Below, piece by piece: positions 35,409 to 45,576 of a DNA stretch of 64,000 nt; within the stretch, counting starts at the first letter, position 1; each line of letters begins with the position of its first letter. Below the pieces are notes generated by a model. That model was not told the origin of the DNA, did no database searches, and saw only the letters and a program-made list of their open reading frames with translations. The stretch lies in the NCBI GenBank assembly GCA_944322785.1, contig CALUPW010000002.1, forward strand, positions 124,001 to 188,000, written 5' to 3'. This DNA is from Candidatus Gastranaerophilales bacterium. Lineage in GTDB: Bacteria > Cyanobacteriota > Vampirovibrionia > Gastranaerophilales > Gastranaerophilaceae. The position numbers and the translations under genes are program-made.

Positions 35409-36191
35409 CTAAAATATATTCGCATAAGTTGTAAAATAATCGGATATAACATTTAAAAGCATGGGTAAAATCCATACCATGATAGCAGCACCGAAAACCG
35501 GCTTAAAAAGAAAGCTTAATTGAAAAACGTTTACCTGCGGAGCGGTTTTTGAAATTACACCTAAGATAATATCCTGTCCGAGAGTTGCAAGAAGAACCGG
35601 AGATGCGATTTGCAAACCCATAAAAAGTACGTTAGAACTCATTTTAATCAAATAATCCATATTAACAAGTTCTTTTAGCGGAACTGACGTTGCAAAAAGC
35701 GGAAAAATTTCAAAACTTCTTAATAGCGCCCTAATCAGCCAGTAAACACCTCCTATGTGCATAAAAATTAAAACTCCCAGAAGCGCCATAATCCTTGTCA
35801 AAATAGAAACCTGACTGGAAGTTGTCGGGTCAAGCACCATCGCAGAGGAAAGTCCCATCTGCATGTTTATCATATCAGCCCCTGCGTCAACCGCAAGAAG
35901 AATAAGCTGTGCAAGATATCCTATCATTGCGCCGACCGCAAAGTTTAAAAGAATGGAAAGGACAAACGAATCCTGAGTACCTGCTAATGTTGCCGGACTC
36001 AAAAACGGCGTCATAATAACCGTAAATAAAAGTGCAAGACAAATTTTTATCATTCCCGGGATTTCTCTTTTGTTAAATACCGGAGCGAAGCGGAAAAAGC
36101 CGATTAATCTGGCAAAAACATAAATGCCGGCGGCAAGAGATGCATTCAGATGCGGAAACATTTTCATCAATTCAACATAAATTGTATCCAT
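35409..36191 (-). CDS. fliR: Flagellar/type III export protein FliR
   Basis: 260 residues with six or more membrane helices (FliR/SctT family). Typical parts are VFARLIGFFRFAPVF, GYLAQLILLAVDAGADMINMQMGLSSAMVLDP, and the C-terminal IMVWILPMLLN. It forms the export gate in the inner membrane together with FliP and FliQ. It is the last gene of the leftward fliM/N-fliO-fliP-fliQ-fliR cluster. flhB, the usual next gene, is missing here. Confidence 0.9.
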   Translation of the reverse strand: MDTIYVELMKMFPHLNASLAAGIYVFARLIGFFRFAPVFNKREIPGMIKICLALLFTVIMTPFLSPATLAGTQDSFVLSILLNFAVGAMIGYLAQLILLAVDAGADMINMQMGLSSAMVLDPTTSSQVSILTRIMALLGVLIFMHIGGVYWLIRALLRSFEIFPLFATSVPLKELVNMDYLIKMSSNVLFMGLQIASPVLLATLGQDIILGVISKTAPQVNVFQLSFLFKPVFGAAIMVWILPMLLNVISDYFTTYANIF

Positions 36192-36199
36192 TTAAGAAT

Positions 36200-36691
36200 T
36201 TATCTCCCTAAAATTGTTGTTGTTTCCGTAAAGTCAGGCTGCGGATTTGGCATTCTGTTTGAACGGGAATCTTTCAGTCTTTCCTGATTGTTTATAAAAG
36301 GAATTTGTCCGGGATGGCGCATTATATAATCAATTTCGCCCGTATGGTTAAAACGGTTTTTTAACTCTCCCTGAAACGGAACCGTGTATTTGTAATAGTC
36401 GCCAGACAGAACATAGCTGTCGTTTTTGGAAACTCCGTTAAATGCGAGCGCCATACCTTCGTAAAAAAGGTTTGTAAGCATTCTTATAAAACCGAAACCG
36501 CCTATAATAATTACAAGAAAAACAGCGAGGATTTTCGGTGCTGCGGCTATTGTCTGCTCCTGAACCTGCGTAACTGCCTGCAAAATACCAACAATAAGAC
36601 CTATTCCTGCCGCAACCAGTACACAGGGCATTGATATTGCAAGCATCACGATAAATCCTTTTGATAAATATTCCGCTAAAATTTCTAACAT
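36200..36691 (-). CDS. fliQ: Flagellar/type III export protein FliQ with long C-terminal extension
   Basis: 163 residues against about 90 in most FliQ/SctS proteins. The first 85 are typical, with two membrane helices around FIVMLAISMPCVLVAAGIGLIVG and VTQVQEQTIAAAPKILAVFLVII. The remaining 75 are soluble and polar, with SGDYYKYTVPFQGELKNRF and a Pro/Asn/Arg-rich tail, and match nothing I recognise. The gene is in the expected place between fliP and fliR (8 and 15 bp gaps). Confidence 0.88.
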   Translation of the reverse strand: MLEILAEYLSKGFIVMLAISMPCVLVAAGIGLIVGILQAVTQVQEQTIAAAPKILAVFLVIIIGGFGFIRMLTNLFYEGMALAFNGVSKNDSYVLSGDYYKYTVPFQGELKNRFNHTGEIDYIMRHPGQIPFINNQERLKDSRSNRMPNPQPDFTETTTILGR

Positions 36692-36706
36692 AACGAGTTT
36701 CCCTTA

Positions 36707-37345
36707 TCAGTTATAACTTGTAACAAGCCCCTGAACAATCAAAGCCCAGCCGTCAACCGCAATAAAAATAAGCAGTTTAAACGGCAGTGAAATAATTGTG
36801 GGCGACAGCATGAACATACCAAGAGCCAGAAGAATATTTGCAACAACCAGATCCAGTACTATAAACGGCACAAATATAATAAATCCGATTTCAAAAGCGG
36901 TTTTTAATTCACTGATGATAAACGCCGGTGCAACCTGCCAGATAGTAATTTCCTCAGGAGATTTTGGCGGAGTTTTCTGCGAAAGTTCAACAAAAAATGC
37001 AAGGTCACTTTCTCTTGTCTGTTTCATCATAAATTCTTTTAAAGGTTTGGAACCTTCATTTATAGCTTCAACTATATTGTGGTTTTGATTGTACGGAACA
37101 CTCCCCATTTCATACATTCTTTGAAATGTTGACCCCATTGTAAAAAATGTCAAAATCATTGATAATCCGATAATTACAATCGAAGGCGGAACCTGCTGGG
37201 TTCCCATTGCTGTTTTTAACATAGAAAATACCACAACAAATCTCAAAAAACTCGTCATACAGCAGAATACAAACGGTAAAAGCGAAAATACCGTCATTAC
37301 TATCAGCATTTGAATTATTGGATTTAAATCTTTTATGGCATCCAT
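36707..37345 (-). CDS. fliP: Flagellar/type III export protein FliP
   Basis: 212 residues. The signatures MLIVMTVFSLLPFVFCCMTS, FLRFVVVFSMLKTAMGTQQVPP and APAFIISELKTAFEIGF, and the C-terminal LPFKLLIFIAVDGWALIVQG, are those of FliP/SctR. The cleaved signal peptide usual in flagellar FliP is absent and the length is nearer to injectisome SctR. The neighbouring fliO favours the flagellar branch. It forms the core of the export gate. Confidence 0.92.
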   Translation of the reverse strand: MDAIKDLNPIIQMLIVMTVFSLLPFVFCCMTSFLRFVVVFSMLKTAMGTQQVPPSIVIIGLSMILTFFTMGSTFQRMYEMGSVPYNQNHNIVEAINEGSKPLKEFMMKQTRESDLAFFVELSQKTPPKSPEEITIWQVAPAFIISELKTAFEIGFIIFVPFIVLDLVVANILLALGMFMLSPTIISLPFKLLIFIAVDGWALIVQGLVTSYN

Positions 37346-37349
37346 AAAT

Positions 37350-37841
37350 TTATTCCTTTACCTTTGCAATCATGCTTTTAATCACATTGCCTGATTTTTT
37401 CCCTCTGTTTTTTTGAGGGAAATCTACAATCTGCGGCAAATCATCAATGCCCGTAAAGTTTGTTGTTTCTTTAGAAATTTCCTGCCGCTGTATATTTTTA
37501 GGTTCAGTTTGAATTGTATAATTTGTAATTTTTTGGGGCTGGATTTGCACCTGTTTAAGCTGGGATGCAAATTCGGAAGTTTCGTCCGTATTTTCCGCCA
37601 GTTTTGAAATAAGAGAAGTTTTGTCGGCGTCGCCTGCAACAAGAAATTTTTCTTTTCCCGCTCTAATTACATAAAGCGTTTTTCTTGGACCGAGTGATAA
37701 TGTGTCCTCAACGTTAAGAAATTTTGAATTTTTGGAATACATTCCGCCGTCTGCGAATTTTTTATATACAAAGAGTGCGAAAAATATGAGTCCGCACATT
37801 GCCATTGTATATACAGTAAAATTTAAAATATAACTTCCCAT
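37350..37841 (-). CDS. fliO: Flagellar biosynthesis protein FliO
   Basis: 163 residues. A single N-terminal membrane helix (TVYTMAMCGLIFFALFVYKKF) is followed by the small FliO domain with LNVEDTLSLGPRKTLYVIRAGKEKFLVAGDADKTSLISKL, then a Gln/Thr-rich tail. FliO helps assemble the FliP ring and occurs only in flagellar systems. It is 4 bp upstream of fliP. Confidence 0.85.
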   Translation of the reverse strand: MGSYILNFTVYTMAMCGLIFFALFVYKKFADGGMYSKNSKFLNVEDTLSLGPRKTLYVIRAGKEKFLVAGDADKTSLISKLAENTDETSEFASQLKQVQIQPQKITNYTIQTEPKNIQRQEISKETTNFTGIDDLPQIVDFPQKNRGKKSGNVIKSMIAKVKE

Positions 37842-37864
37842 TCTTTATCCCTTATATTTTTTAA

Positions 37865-39076
37865 TTAAATATCTTCATCTTCCAGTTCAAAATCGCTGTA
37901 ATCAAATTCTTCTTCTTCATTTGCCTGCGGTTCCGGCACCGGCATGGGTTCATCCGGAGAGGCTGCGGGCACAGGTTCGTTGTAATTTTGCTGCGGCATC
38001 GGATTTTGATTTTGCTGCATTGACTGTATATCTTCAACAGCCTGCTGGCCGCCCTGAACAATATCAGAAATTTTTACACCGTATCTGTCGTTGATTATTA
38101 CAAGTTCGCCGTGTCCGATAACTTTGTTTTCAACACGGAGTGTCACTTTGTTATCGTATAAAGCTGCAATATCCACAACGAGTCCCTGTTCTATTCTTTT
38201 TAAATTGCCGAGAGTAATTTTTACGGGATCGAATTCTGCGTACATGTCGACTTCAATACTGTCCCATAAATTTGTATTTTCGGTATTTTCGCTCATTTTA
38301 TCTCCTCCGTCCCCTTCAAGCGGATATTCCAGTCCCATGTTGGGGTTAATTTTAAAGTCTTTTTCATAGTCATTAAGTATAAATTTAAGGTTGTCAAGTC
38401 TGCTGTTTTCAAGAACAACTATATCTTCAGGTTCAAGCCCTTTCATTTCCTTCACGGTAAATCTTGTTGAACCGATTTCAATTTTAGCTTCAATCGGACA
38501 TTCGTAAAAGTCGGAAAATTGAAATTTATCTTCTTTTACAACAACTTTATTTGCCTCAAGACGCACAGACGGAAGGGAAATAATCAGTTTGCCGGAACTG
38601 CCGTCCTCTTTATTTTTTACAATAAAAGTCAGGTGTATCATGTCAAAGTTGGTGCGTTTAATATTTACAACAGGTGTCGGGGTAAGGAATTTAGCCATAA
38701 TACGGAACATATAATCGTTAAACGCAGTTAAAACTTCGCCTTCAAGGTCTGTCATTCTATTGATACTGAAACTTCTATTGGGTCGCCCGAGGGCTTTTTC
38801 AAGAAGCATTCCGACTGTTTTTTCGGATATTCTGAAAAACATGTCATAAAGTTTGTCGATTCTTATTTTTGTTACAAAATAAGATTCTTTTGTCATTAAA
38901 AGATTTATGTTTTTGCTGACTGCAATAAGTTCAAATTGAAATCCTGGCAGGAAAAATCCGTCAAGAGATTTTTGCCCTGCAATGGGAAAAACTTTTTTAA
39001 ACCAGTCATATTCCTCATACAAATTATCGGTGACCGGTATTTTGGTATGTTCCAGTGCCTTTAAAATATTTTCCAT
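37865..39076 (-). CDS. FliM/FliN-like C-ring protein with two SpoA domains
   Basis: 403 residues. Residues 1-190 resemble the FliM middle (CheC-like) domain only loosely. A first SpoA domain lies at about 190-250 (IEAKIEIGSTRFTVKEMKGLEPEDIVVL) and a second at about 285-350 (KITLGNLKRIEQGLVVDIAALYDNKVTLRVE, then HGELVIINDRYGVKISDIV). The tail is Gln/Asn/Pro-rich and then acidic. One protein thus carries FliM- and FliN/SctQ-type parts of the flagellar switch or sorting platform at the cytoplasmic face. It heads the fliO-P-Q-R cluster. Confidence 0.8.
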   Translation of the reverse strand: MENILKALEHTKIPVTDNLYEEYDWFKKVFPIAGQKSLDGFFLPGFQFELIAVSKNINLLMTKESYFVTKIRIDKLYDMFFRISEKTVGMLLEKALGRPNRSFSINRMTDLEGEVLTAFNDYMFRIMAKFLTPTPVVNIKRTNFDMIHLTFIVKNKEDGSSGKLIISLPSVRLEANKVVVKEDKFQFSDFYECPIEAKIEIGSTRFTVKEMKGLEPEDIVVLENSRLDNLKFILNDYEKDFKINPNMGLEYPLEGDGGDKMSENTENTNLWDSIEVDMYAEFDPVKITLGNLKRIEQGLVVDIAALYDNKVTLRVENKVIGHGELVIINDRYGVKISDIVQGGQQAVEDIQSMQQNQNPMPQQNYNEPVPAASPDEPMPVPEPQANEEEEFDYSDFELEDEDI

Positions 39077-39199: not shown

Positions 39200-40369
39200 T
39201 TATAACGTAGACTTTACAAAATCCGCAATTTCACATGCATCAACAGTTCCTACAACGATTTCAAAATCAAGACCGGCGGATTTTATTTCGGTTTCGAGTT
39301 CTTTTTTCATGTGAGAAAGTAGACCGGGTATTATTATTTTACGGTTTTTGACTTTTTGGGAAAAATTTGTTTTTTGAAGCATTTGAACAACCATTCGGGC
39401 AGTGAACTTTTCGGCAGACCATGCTGTTAAAACACTCATTCCGTCTGCCGGAGTTACAATAAGATATGATGAGCGGTCAAGTTTTTCCAGCTCGTTTGCA
39501 ACTGCAAAAAATGTCAGTGCAAAGTTTGTTGTAAGAAAAATCAGTGAGTTTTCATCGGCATCGTTAAATTCATAAATTTTTGATTCAACTTTTAAGGGTT
39601 TTTGAGGATCCGTAAAAATATTTTCCCGAAGCATAAGAAGTGAGGAAAACATTGCTCCGTCAAAATTTTCAAAAAGGAGCATATTTGCGTATTTGCAAAT
39701 ATAAAATGCTGCTTTTGCGCAAAGGTCATCTGAATTTTGGTATTTTGAAAAATGAACGCATACAGGATTTGAATAATTTTCGTCTTTTTCTTTTATTGCT
39801 TTTTCCCTTATAAATTTAAGTTCGTTTGCTGTTTTTGAAAAATTTTCATCTTTAATAATTTTTATAGGGAGTTTTTCAAATTCATCCCACAAAATTAGGC
39901 GGGTATCGTTTTCTTTGCAGGCTGATATTGTGGTGATTTTTACTTCTTTTGTTAAACTGTCCGAATTTTTTAAAACAATTAAATCGATTTTTTTTGTTTT
40001 ATTCAAAATACAAATTTCAAAATCTTTTACATCTTCAAACTTTTTTTGAAAATCGAGGTCTTCACAGTCCAGTAAAACACAAAGTGCTGTCGGATTTATA
40101 AAAGTTTTTTCATGTCTTGCCAGAACATTTTCGCCGCCGGTTTTTAATCCTTTTATCTCAACTGTTTTTTGAGAAATCTTCCGGGATTTTTCATAAATAT
40201 TTTTTAATTCATCAGGTACATATTTACAATTTTCAATTTTTTCGGTACCTTTTGCAAGTTTTAGCGCAAAAGCCATGCAGGTCGGACAGCCGCATTGTTT
40301 GCAATTGGCATTTTCTGTCTTTTTTGCAGCCGGAAGATATTTGAAAATCTGTAATCCTGAAAGTTCCAT
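39200..40369 (-). CDS. acsC: Corrinoid iron-sulfur protein large subunit (AcsC/CdhE-like)
   Basis: 389 residues. The N-terminal 4Fe-4S motif is CX2CX4CX16C (C23, C26, C31, C48) in NCKQCGCPTCMAFALKLAKG, the spacing of known CFeSP large subunits. The C-terminal cobamide domain keeps FLTTNFALTFFAV, PADGMSVLTAWSAEKFTARMV, RKIIIPGLL and VVGTVDACEIADFV. The central barrel appears shortened. In the Wood-Ljungdahl pathway this protein carries a methyl group on its corrinoid cobalt. No acetyl-CoA synthase, CO dehydrogenase or AcsE methyltransferase is here, so its job may be another methyl transfer. It starts 1 bp after the small-subunit gene. Confidence 0.85.
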   Translation of the reverse strand: MELSGLQIFKYLPAAKKTENANCKQCGCPTCMAFALKLAKGTEKIENCKYVPDELKNIYEKSRKISQKTVEIKGLKTGGENVLARHEKTFINPTALCVLLDCEDLDFQKKFEDVKDFEICILNKTKKIDLIVLKNSDSLTKEVKITTISACKENDTRLILWDEFEKLPIKIIKDENFSKTANELKFIREKAIKEKDENYSNPVCVHFSKYQNSDDLCAKAAFYICKYANMLLFENFDGAMFSSLLMLRENIFTDPQKPLKVESKIYEFNDADENSLIFLTTNFALTFFAVANELEKLDRSSYLIVTPADGMSVLTAWSAEKFTARMVVQMLQKTNFSQKVKNRKIIIPGLLSHMKKELETEIKSAGLDFEIVVGTVDACEIADFVKSTL

Positions 40370-40370
40370 T

Positions 40371-41258
40371 TTACTCCAGTCCTTTCATTGTTTTTAAAGT
40401 TTCGGGATGATTGATTACGATTAAATCTGCGCCTGCGGCACGTACTGCGCTTGCGGCCGTTATTTCAAACATTTTTATTCTTTCATCCAGATTCCCCCAG
40501 CTTTTTGAAAAATCGGTTGACTTTGTTTCTTTTGTTTTAAGCGCCTCCTCACAGGCAAATGAAATTATCGGTGTGTCCAAATATTTGTCTTTTTTACCTT
40601 CAAGTTTAATTTTTTCAATTATGCTGTAACCGTATTCAAATCCGTAACCCAAACCTCCGATATCTGAATCTGTAATAATTCTGTCAAGCGGCTGCCCCAT
40701 ATCATTTGATAAAATCGTAATTTCTTTTGCAAGATTTATGTCAATCGGTGAATGCAAAACAATAAAATGCCTGTCTTTTGTAAACGGAATGATTTCTTTA
40801 TAAGTGTTTTCGTTTGCAGATGCTATTATAGTTTCACGATCAAGATTTTTTATAAGCTGTGGCAGAAGAATTTTGTCAAGTTGGTCATCATTTGTCCCTC
40901 TTATCATAAGAGGTTTTGTGATAATGGGAAGAAGTTCTTTTAAAATTTCAACCGACTTTTTAACATCATTTTCATGTTCAATATTAAATTTCAAACTTAA
41001 AATATCAGGGTCAAATTTTTGCGCGGTTTCAACTAATTTCTTTTGAAATCCGGCGCCTGCGCAAATTATATTCGGGTAAGACGCCGATTTTCCGGCGCAG
41101 GCACCTTCTTTATCCAAAAATTCCCGCATAAAAGGAAATCCGTTTTCAGGATTGAAAATCGGAAGTTCCAGAATGTATTTTGATTTAATCGGAAACCCTT
41201 CAGCTTTCAAGCTTGGAAGGCTTTCCGATTTTTTTATATCAGCAGTTTTCTCTGTCAC
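40371..41258 (-). CDS. acsD: Corrinoid iron-sulfur protein small subunit (AcsD/CdhD-like)
   Basis: 295 residues, a TIM-barrel fold. Family parts are FKHPxTF-like [96 protein letters not shown] and the C-terminal [22 protein letters not shown]. It pairs with the large subunit to hold and shield the corrinoid. Its ATG lies inside the ftsH coding region (20-bp overlap), which suggests translational coupling to ftsH. Confidence 0.87.
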
Positions 41259-43311: not shown

Positions 43312-44136
43312 ATGTCTATTGAAGGTGTAGATAAAACAAATAAACAGGATTTAATTTTTGCATCCGGCACAGCCCTTGGCGGAGGGATTTTGTCGGGTTT
43401 GCTCGGCGGCTCATCCGCAAAACTTTTTTATAACGATTTGCCGTCGGATGTTTTTGTCAATGAAGTCAGGCAAAAAATAATAAACAAAACCGATGATAAA
43501 ACTGTCAGAAAAATGAATGCATTTGAAAAATACAGCCTGAATATTGAAAAAGCAAATTCATTAGACGATCTTGTTTCGGCGGAAATTAATTTTAAATTGG
43601 CATGTTCACCAAAGACAACTTTTAATGAATTAAAGACAAAATATGCAGAAAAACTTGTTAAAAGCCGCAGGTTTTCGGATTTTGTTAATGCTTCTGGAAG
43701 AACTGTGGATATTGCATTAGATGTTTATCAGGATATAAAAGATTCTGAAAATATTTTTGCATTAAAAGATGCACTGGTGCGCCAGAAAGAAATATTCTTT
43801 GAAGGTTATTCGCTTGATGAGATTAAAGAGATGAAAAAAGATGGTCTTGCCCGTATGATGTTAAAACAGGGATTTGATATAGCAACTTTTGACGATTATG
43901 CGCAGCAGGCAATAACGCAGTCTTATAATATACAAAAGGGAAAATTTCATTTTAACCCATCAAAGATTTCAAAAGAAATGTACAATATTGTTGTAGATGC
44001 CGCAAAAAGTTTGAAGCGGAAAACTTTTGCGTTTTATGCTCTCACCGGTGCTCTTATTTCAGGCGGAGGGACTTATTCCATAATAAAGATTACAGATTTT
44101 TTTAAAGAAATAAGAAACTATAAGCATAAAAAATAA
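43312..44136 (+). CDS. Hypothetical protein with glycine-rich start and C-terminal helix, 274 aa
   Basis: Not recognised. A Gly/Leu/Ser-rich hydrophobic segment near the N-terminus (GTALGGGILSGLLGGSSA) and one near the C-terminus (TFAFYALTGALISGGGTY) flank a long charged helical middle. No signal peptide is evident. This membrane-helical-membrane pattern recurs in the 50106 protein. It is transcribed alone, divergent from ftsH. Confidence 0.6.
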   Translation: MSIEGVDKTNKQDLIFASGTALGGGILSGLLGGSSAKLFYNDLPSDVFVNEVRQKIINKTDDKTVRKMNAFEKYSLNIEKANSLDDLVSAEINFKLACSPKTTFNELKTKYAEKLVKSRRFSDFVNASGRTVDIALDVYQDIKDSENIFALKDALVRQKEIFFEGYSLDEIKEMKKDGLARMMLKQGFDIATFDDYAQQAITQSYNIQKGKFHFNPSKISKEMYNIVVDAAKSLKRKTFAFYALTGALISGGGTYSIIKITDFFKEIRNYKHKK

Positions 44137-44263
44137 ACAATATAGAACATACATAATTTCGTTAAAGAGTTCTTTTATGCGGGTTGTTATTGTGGTGTAA
44201 GAGAAAATTTTTTGTTGGTGCCAAAAGTAAGTTATTAATAATGTTAACTTTTGTAAAAACGAA

Positions 44264-44292
44264 TTTCAAATAGGCGCAAATCCGCTTATAAT
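44264..44292 (+). promoter_or_regulatory. Promoter of the annexin-like gene
   Basis: TTTCAA (44264-44269), 17-bp spacer and TATAAT (44287-44292). The predicted start site falls at the beginning of the GGATA repeat. Confidence 0.5.
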
Positions 44293-44296
44293 CTCT

Positions 44297-44322
44297 GATA
44301 GGATAGGATAGGATAGGATAGG
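44297..44322 (+). repeat. Pentanucleotide tandem repeat (GGATA)n
   Basis: GATA followed by four full GGATA units and GG, about five units in all. It lies 4 bp after a TATAAT box and 114 bp before the ATG of the next gene. Such short tandem repeats can change length by slippage. Confidence 0.85.
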
Positions 44323-44436
44323 TGGGGAGCTATGCAATTTTAAATTGTAAAAATACTTTATTTACCTGTAACGAGGATTTAACTATTCACGTGAGGTATA
44401 AAGCATCTTGTGTGCAAAACGAAAGGAGTATTAATT

Positions 44437-45546
44437 ATGTCAATTGATCCGGCAAACAGAGTGAACAGCATGGATGTTAAAATGACAGGAACAGGTTCTT
44501 CACAGAAAAAACAGTCTATTGCAGAAACGGTAATTAATTTTTTAAGCGGAGATAGCGAATCAGAAAAAGATTATCCGGGGCTTGGAATTGAAAAATCCGC
44601 TAAAAATCAGGCTGACATTTATAAAATTGCTGCACGGGAACTTGAAGATTTGGATAGAGCTGTCGAACGTCAGGAACGTAGAATTGAAAAAGCGCAAAAA
44701 AGAATGGAGAAATACGGTTCAGCTCGAGTTTCACAATTCGGGTATCAAAAAATGCAGGAGGAATTAGCCGAATTAAAAGCAGACCGTGATAATCTTGCGA
44801 AAGGCGAAAATGTCGATGAAATTCTTGAAAAATATGCGCCGAAATCTATGGAAAGACTTGAAAAGAAAGAAGAACGTCCGATAAGGAAGGAACTAAACAA
44901 GGTCGAATCAGAAATTAAGAAAAAAACGGCTCAGCTATACCGTACAAGAGATTACGGTGAAGATTCGGAGAGTGCAAAAATAAAAGCTGAATTAAGTGAC
45001 CTGAATAATAGAAAAGCCGAATTGGAATTGCAGTTGAAAGATACAGTAGCTTCTAAAATGTCACAGGCAGAGGCGGAATTTATTGGAGATAAAAATAAAA
45101 CAGAAAATACAAGTCTGCCAAAAAGAGTTTCAACAGCAAATCCGGACGAGGTAAACGAAATTTGTGATGATATGTTTAAGGCAATAGACGGGCTTGGAAC
45201 GGATGATGAGCTTTTTGAAAAAACTTTGTCACGTCTTAACAAGGATAACATAATTGAAGTTATGGAAAAATGGGACGAAACTTACGGCAAAGATTACAAT
45301 GAATCATTTATGGATTCGTTTTTAGATGATGCAGATGGTATCCAGAAAAAAGAGTTCGGAACAAAAATTGTTGATATGCTTGAGCAAAGAGCAAAAGAAA
45401 ACGGACTTGATTTTGCCGGAAAATCTTCATCTTTAAAAATGGAACTAAAACGGGAGCAGTTAACTTTCAAAACAGAAAATCTTGTAGGATATCAGATTTC
45501 TCAAATGTATGGTGAGATTAGAGCTAAAGAGCAAAACGATGTATAA
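44437..45546 (+). CDS. Coiled-coil protein with a single annexin-like repeat
   Basis: 369 residues from the ATG at 44437, which has an AAAGGAG site. An in-frame GTG at 44410 is less likely. Residues about 60-220 are highly charged coiled coil. Residues about 240-300 resemble one annexin repeat: FKAIDGLGTDDELFEKTLSRLN, then IIEVMEKWDETYGKDYNESFMDSF, with G252-x-G-T-D256 as in the calcium loop and YGKD in the helix D position. There is no signal peptide. Annexins bind membranes through calcium; whether one divergent repeat does so is unknown. A terminator follows the stop. Confidence 0.6.
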   Translation: MSIDPANRVNSMDVKMTGTGSSQKKQSIAETVINFLSGDSESEKDYPGLGIEKSAKNQADIYKIAARELEDLDRAVERQERRIEKAQKRMEKYGSARVSQFGYQKMQEELAELKADRDNLAKGENVDEILEKYAPKSMERLEKKEERPIRKELNKVESEIKKKTAQLYRTRDYGEDSESAKIKAELSDLNNRKAELELQLKDTVASKMSQAEAEFIGDKNKTENTSLPKRVSTANPDEVNEICDDMFKAIDGLGTDDELFEKTLSRLNKDNIIEVMEKWDETYGKDYNESFMDSFLDDADGIQKKEFGTKIVDMLEQRAKENGLDFAGKSSSLKMELKREQLTFKTENLVGYQISQMYGEIRAKEQNDV

Positions 45547-45576
45547 AAAAAGCGGGGTAAAAGCCCCGCTTTTTTA
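45545..45576. terminator. Bidirectional intrinsic terminator
   Basis: Stem AGCGGGG / CCCCGCT with A and T runs on both sides, between the annexin-like gene and the exbD operon end. Confidence 0.88.

Follow-up and report, generated by a model that had tools for sequence, protein, structure and literature searches.

Bacterial annexins have been described by Kodavali et al. (2014; PMC3894181), who reported about thirty homologues in 17 species, and as a kind they are thus already known. The taxa in that work were Bacteroidetes/Chlorobi, Gemmatimonadetes, beta- and delta-Proteobacteria and Actinobacteria, and not Cyanobacteria or Melainabacteria; the examples included a single-domain annexin of Cytophaga hutchinsonii and the annexins of Haliangium and Microscilla, and single-repeat forms were among those described. 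The locus analyzed here lies in a stretch of 64,000 nucleotides (the window) from a Candidatus Gastranaerophilales genome (GCA_944322785.1, contig CALUPW010000002.1, positions 124,001 to 188,000) and comprises a gene for a 369-amino acid protein in which a coiled coil bears one annexin-type repeat at its end. A first-pass annotation of the sequence had proposed an annexin-like repeat in this coiled-coil protein, and the analyses presented below bore this out.

The domain belongs, with high confidence, to the annexin repeats. The segment AIDGLGTDDELF...YGKD that drew attention to the protein is present at 45181-45294 of the window, inside the open reading frame, and its spacing is that claimed for annexins, since GxGTD and YGK lie as far apart as in annexin A4 repeat 4, without any net gap. 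The pattern of GxGTD followed by a spaced YGx[D] occurred a single time in the six frames of the window, and a hidden Markov model (HMM) built from canonical annexin repeats of bacteria and phages scored the protein at 40.1 bits, whereas the highest of 5000 shuffles reached 10.7 bits; both results indicate that the match is more than chance. Search of the PDB with the protein (phmmer) placed annexins at the top of the list (E 1.2e-5), while a domain profile of 21 sequences, all from the phylum of the source organism, matched annexins with a best E of 3e-24, the top matches being nearly all annexins. The profile search suggested by the first-pass annotation was therefore positive, although the single sequence stayed below the 25-bit gathering cut-off of the Pfam annexin family PF00191 (15.7 bits for the full protein, 18.5 bits for the domain alone). 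Alignment of the family profile with canonical bacterial and phage annexin repeats (hhalign) covered 77 columns, among them those of helix E, at a probability of 98.9%.

Structure prediction gave the same result. The AlphaFold model of the domain showed five helices in the A-E order with a mean pLDDT of 90.3, and VIA-align of the full-length model found annexin A2 repeat 1 as best match (Z 10.4, RMSD 1.8 A over 78 residues); the list for the domain-only model was likewise filled by annexins. Foldseek also ranked annexins first, yet with an E of 0.3 and a poor global superposition, a point settled by the second aligner and the full-length model, and comparison with a viral structure library returned no meaningful match. 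A Z of about 10 is not by itself decisive for a helical bundle, whereas its agreement with an independent sequence profile is. A GxGTD loop arisen by chance or convergence in an unrelated helical bundle would account for the sub-threshold Pfam score and for middling structural Z-scores, which are common among such bundles; this explanation is already contradicted by the annexin matches of the profile, by an hhalign alignment spanning all five helices, by the close superposition on annexin A2 and by the low scores of the shuffles, and is considered highly improbable.

The calcium site was analyzed by aligning the repeat with those of its relatives. Residues G252-L-G-T-D256 have the sequence of a type II loop and lie between helices A and B. 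The first-pass annotation had expected the acidic ligand near D293/S294 and held calcium binding to be uncertain. In comparison with four-repeat relatives, the protein has four extra residues (KDYN region) after YG and ahead of helix D, and past this insertion ESFMDSFLDDADG aligns without gaps to ESLMDAIKGDFSG; because the insertion shifts the alignment, it is D298, with which helix D ends in the model, that occupies the place of the aspartate of KGDFSG. The ligand had thus been misplaced by the insertion, and the doubt was not upheld, as the predicted acid is present. Among 21 single-repeat relatives, 20 have D in this column; the 13 repeats of large proteins all have E, and the canonical and phage repeats all have D (6/6 and 2/2), so that the column is acidic in 41 of the 42 aligned repeats. 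A type II site made of the carbonyls of the IDGLGTD loop and D298 therefore looks complete, as predicted from the alignment. The fold may alternatively have been kept while calcium binding was lost, leaving the repeat as a protein-protein interaction module. The Pfam score under the cut-off, the insertion ahead of helix D and the loop of the large relatives, which is often degenerate (GTS, GTG, GVS), would fit such a loss, and the degenerate loops do imply that calcium binding is not conserved across the whole superfamily. In the single-repeat group, however, G254 and T255 are invariant and D298 nearly so, and for this selection on a loop and a remote acid a metal site is the best explanation, which makes the loss of binding improbable.

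The features of the gene and its protein are listed in Table 1. The open reading frame runs from the ATG at 44437 to a stop codon at 45544-45546; an alternative start, GTG at 44410, is improbable, as the orthologs align at the ATG. Orthologs were found at loci L066 (73% identity over the whole length), L067 (59%) and L068, all of which adjoin exbD, with ftsH on the opposite side in L066 and L067. The gene is considered real because related genomes keep a full-length ortholog, with the gene order ftsH-X-annexin-exbD unchanged. Its neighbors in the source genome are likewise ftsH and exbD/exbB/tonB-like genes, and the terminator is probably common to it and the convergent exbD-like gene; the hairpin was absent from the list of a pattern scan and was found by reading the sequence. 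The helices of the repeat were assigned to residues 236-250 (A), 257-265 (B), 272-287 (C), 291-298 (D) and 301-321 (E), and with one repeat only the protein does not have the four- or eight-repeat annexin core. Residues 1-52 contain neither a signal peptide nor a transmembrane-like segment, the best N-terminal 19-mer having a hydropathy of -0.25. A sub-threshold acetyltransferase match in NCBIfam was rejected as spurious, and the upstream gene at 43312-44136 was dropped as a homologue of the L146/L116 family, the match covering only 27 residues (E 0.001). Next to ftsH, at 39200-41258 (-), there are two CdhD-like genes (CO dehydrogenase/acetyl-CoA synthase delta subunit); the lineage is fermentative and inhabits the gut.

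Table 1. Features of the annexin-repeat gene, its product and its upstream region (positions in the window).
Feature	Position	Strand	Basis or remark
Conserved promoter element TGTAAAnnnnAnTTnnAAA...AAAnnCnnnTATAAT, ending in TATAAT	44252-44292	+	30 exact pattern matches in the genus
(GATAG)5.2, perfect pentanucleotide array	44297-44322	+	4 bp past the -10 hexamer
Shine-Dalgarno AAAGGAG	44422-44428	+	Read from the sequence
Gene for the 369-aa coiled-coil and annexin-repeat protein	44437-45546	+	Open reading frame, Shine-Dalgarno, syntenic orthologs
Disordered hydrophilic N-terminus, residues 1-52	44437-44592	+	pLDDT <50 over most of it (AlphaFold 2, AF2)
Long helices/coiled coil, residues 53-216	44593-45084	+	AF2 model m630192f76352, pLDDT about 90
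Single annexin-type repeat, residues 235-326	45139-45414	+	PDB profile, hhalign, AF2 and VIA-align
GxGTD calcium loop (predicted), residues G252-D256	45190-45204	+	G254/T255 invariant in 21/21 single-repeat relatives
D298, counterpart of the acidic ligand of type II calcium sites, D/E turn	45328-45330	+	Aligned to the aspartate of KGDFSG of four-repeat annexins
Two C-terminal helices beyond the repeat, residues 327-365	45415-45531	+	AF2 model
Probable terminator, hairpin GCGGGG-TAAAAG-CCCCGC and T-run	45552-45575	+	Read from the sequence

A profile search of 386 genomes of the phylum found the domain in 124, namely 123 in the family of the source organism and one in another family of the same order, so that the rarity of bacterial annexins assumed in the first-pass annotation does not extend to this lineage. 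Nearly all named relatives from a narrower domain alignment and the profile search of genome contigs were metagenome-assembled genomes of Candidatus Gastranaerophilales or Melainabacteria, and the source genome itself has a second copy of the domain in a protein of 426 aa. Typical relatives have 150-520 aa and a single repeat in C-terminal or central position. Others, of 800-2400 aa, combine EF-hand, LysM and sometimes RHS-like segments with the annexin-like domain and have a C-terminal part that varies and can be a calpain-family protease (L097), zeta toxin (L091), FHA (L089 and L092), HD (L090) or amidase with phage lysozyme (L098). The loci L089-L102 as a whole encode large polymorphic effector-like proteins, none with a Sec signal. 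Multi-repeat forms also occur: L103 (1470-3530), from a genome of the Gastranaerophilales family, has four canonical repeats with the GDFSG acids and 186.9 bits in Pfam, and L104 (3975-7157), from a different family of the order, is a multi-repeat annexin. On three IMG/VR viral contigs (L105, L106, L107) a glycine-zipper segment is followed by an annexin repeat, which in L106 exceeds the Pfam cut-off (29.8 bits). In the literature searched, no relevant paper linked Melainabacteria to annexin or Gastranaerophilales to type III secretion, and there was no account of the lineage as a source of annexins, of the coiled-coil single-repeat form with its insertion, of the family of fusions or of the promoter class treated below; a large annexin-bearing family in this bacterial group is apparently undescribed.

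The predicted site and the architecture together suggest how the protein may act. A single repeat borne at the end of a coiled coil would be brought together with others by oligomerization, several single repeats jointly replacing the four fused repeats of eukaryotic annexins, and the oligomer would bind acidic membranes at high calcium. Such calcium-dependent membrane binding is considered somewhat more likely than not. The protein would further leave the cytoplasm independently of Sec, most likely through a flagellin-less flagellar-type (type III) apparatus, and the high extracellular calcium would turn on binding to the membrane of its own cell surface or of a neighboring or host cell. Taken whole, this reading of a calcium-dependent, coiled-coil-multivalent, Sec-independently exported membrane-binding protein is held at about even confidence.

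The evidence on export comes from the proteins and from the genome. No signal-peptide-like hydrophobic N-terminus was found in 61 distinct domain-bearing proteins, and the 369-residue protein combines the lack of a Sec signal with a disordered N-terminus, as type III effectors do. Because peptidoglycan-cleaving or effector-like parts occur in relatives without a Sec signal, a Sec-independent route is needed. The source genome encodes fliE, fliF, fliH, flhA, flhB, fliO, fliP, fliQ, fliR, a fliM/N-like gene and rod-type genes, and no flagellin above cut-off was found in it; fliR, fliQ, fliP, fliO and fliM/N lie inside the window at 35409-39076 (-), and fliE, fliF, fliH and flhA elsewhere (L087 4702-10815; C12 and C3 of the genome). 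Partial flagellar gene sets, which would not yield a flagellum, have been noted in several Gastranaerophilales (PMC4040986). Annexin-positive genomes also hold an FlhA-type protein, among the matches listed. Two loci (L085 7660-9135 and L086 8042-9823) encode extra proteins with only the cytosolic part of FlhA (FHIPEP about 270-654) beside a full-length FlhA. By eye, and uncounted, a motif N-x-[NS]-F-x-[GA] recurs in the short starting segment of many proteins of these genomes, e.g., MKIQNISNSQQNTNFQGNLILKG (L070 3038, L073 9066, L078 167, L085 14613), and is a candidate common N-terminal signal. Export of the 369-residue protein from the cytoplasm would be an evenly balanced prediction, and the type III route a tentative one.

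Several observations weigh against this reading, in addition to the degenerate loops of the large relatives. The calcium and membrane functions are predictions from sequence and fold, and the functional unit of eukaryotic annexins is not a single repeat. The argument for export through a type III gate consists solely of the presence of the apparatus and the absence of a signal. FlhA is near-universal in the family, so that finding it together with the domain is suggestive only and adds no independent evidence; it is present, too, in families that lack the domain. The neighbors ftsH and exbD/exbB/tonB-like have ordinary inner-membrane functions. These envelope genes and the absence of a secretion signal would also suit an intracellular use, in which the protein is a scaffold of the envelope or of cell division and its coiled coil is anchored through the repeat to the inner leaflet or to a partner protein. 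The LysM and peptidoglycan-cleaving domains of relatives, however, would be senseless in the cytoplasm, and the promoter is shared with effector-like genes. Calcium in the bacterial cytoplasm is low, and there the conserved site would rarely be occupied. An intracellular role is thus considered fairly unlikely in comparison with an exported membrane-binding protein.

Upstream of the gene, the conserved element belongs to a promoter class of the pattern TGTAAAnnnnAnTTnnAAA-N6/7-AAAnnCnnnTATAMT, followed 4-5 bp on by pentanucleotide repeats. The search pattern ends at the -10 hexamer and contains no repeat information; in the genus it matched 30 sites, spread over 9 of 14 genomes, against none for a reversed control pattern, and all 30 had pentanucleotide repeats within a few bases of the -10 (two interrupted). 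The units vary (GATAG, ATATG, GTATG, GATAT, GGTAT and others), as do the lengths, from 10 to at least 55 bp, and at orthologous sites copy number differs among species, e.g., L138 and L142. In 775 kb of scanned DNA, a sample that includes loci fetched by a GATAG-repeat search, pentanucleotide arrays began at this -10 position and no 4- or 6-mer arrays were found there. Sites of the class are those of the window (44252-44322) and of L116, L118, L120, L121, L122, L124, L126 and L135-L164. Their downstream products are small and effector-like, and their N-termini are not Sec-like, a spurious 66-aa call being the one exception; the promoter is also common to a large EF-hand protein whose gene carries an annexin-like domain in genome G198. 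At L101 (4700 bp), the upstream part of the promoter is a perfect 18-bp palindrome, TGTAAATTCGAATTTACA, and three repeat promoters with (CATAG)5 each lie within 4.7 kb, which suggests a tandem gene array. The repeat may tune expression; it looks like a phase-variation design, switching being a prediction from the sequence.

A broader proposal, that a flagellin-less flagellar-type type III machine of gut Gastranaerophilales exports polymorphic calcium-responsive effectors (annexin, EF-hand, calpain-like), part of them under a dedicated promoter class in which a pentanucleotide array at the start of transcription gives phase-variable expression, would be consistent with these data but is regarded as unlikely. 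The distribution has its own interest. Bacterial annexins have been reported as patchy and rare, which fed the debate on annexin origin, and here the repeat is widespread in one bacterial family of animal-gut commensals, where it occurs singly, four times over or in fusions, with the calcium site kept. Studies of annexin evolution gain a dense set of bacterial data, and the question whether a lone repeat borne by a coiled coil can bind membranes becomes testable. The Sec-independent effector-like proteins and the repeat-bearing promoters may also be a lead on host or neighbor contact by mostly uncultured commensals.

Compared with the bacterial annexins of PMC3894181, the proteins of this family share the conserved GxGTD, the occurrence of single- and multi-repeat forms and, in some, fusions there to toxin, protease or lipase domains, but differ in that the repeat is spread across a whole family and is associated with a 4-residue insertion between helices C and D, a coiled coil and EF-hand, LysM and calpain-like partners. 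With eukaryotic annexins (A2, A4, A6, plant Gh1) they have in common the five-helix repeat and the type II GxGTD plus D/E-turn acid, at a structural-alignment identity of about 8-19%; whereas those proteins fuse four or eight repeats into a curved disc, here one repeat stands at the end of a coiled coil. The large relatives resemble polymorphic or type III effectors (XopAW model NF041410, RHS/YD-repeat toxins) in that they have an EF-hand at the N-terminus, contain YD/RHS-like repeats, vary in the enzymatic domains at the C-terminus and lack Sec signals. The match to NF041410, however, reaches 17.4 of 120 bits, far under the cut-off; unlike such effectors, the 369-residue protein has no catalytic domain. 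Phase variation by simple sequence repeats in the promoter or 5' untranslated region occurs, for example, in Moraxella catarrhalis uspA2 and Haemophilus hmw. As in those genes, a tandem repeat stands here in the promoter or 5' untranslated region of a candidate surface or effector gene; unlike in those genes, the repeat keeps a period of 5 and a place 4-6 bp past the -10, and what varies is the sequence of the unit and the number of copies.
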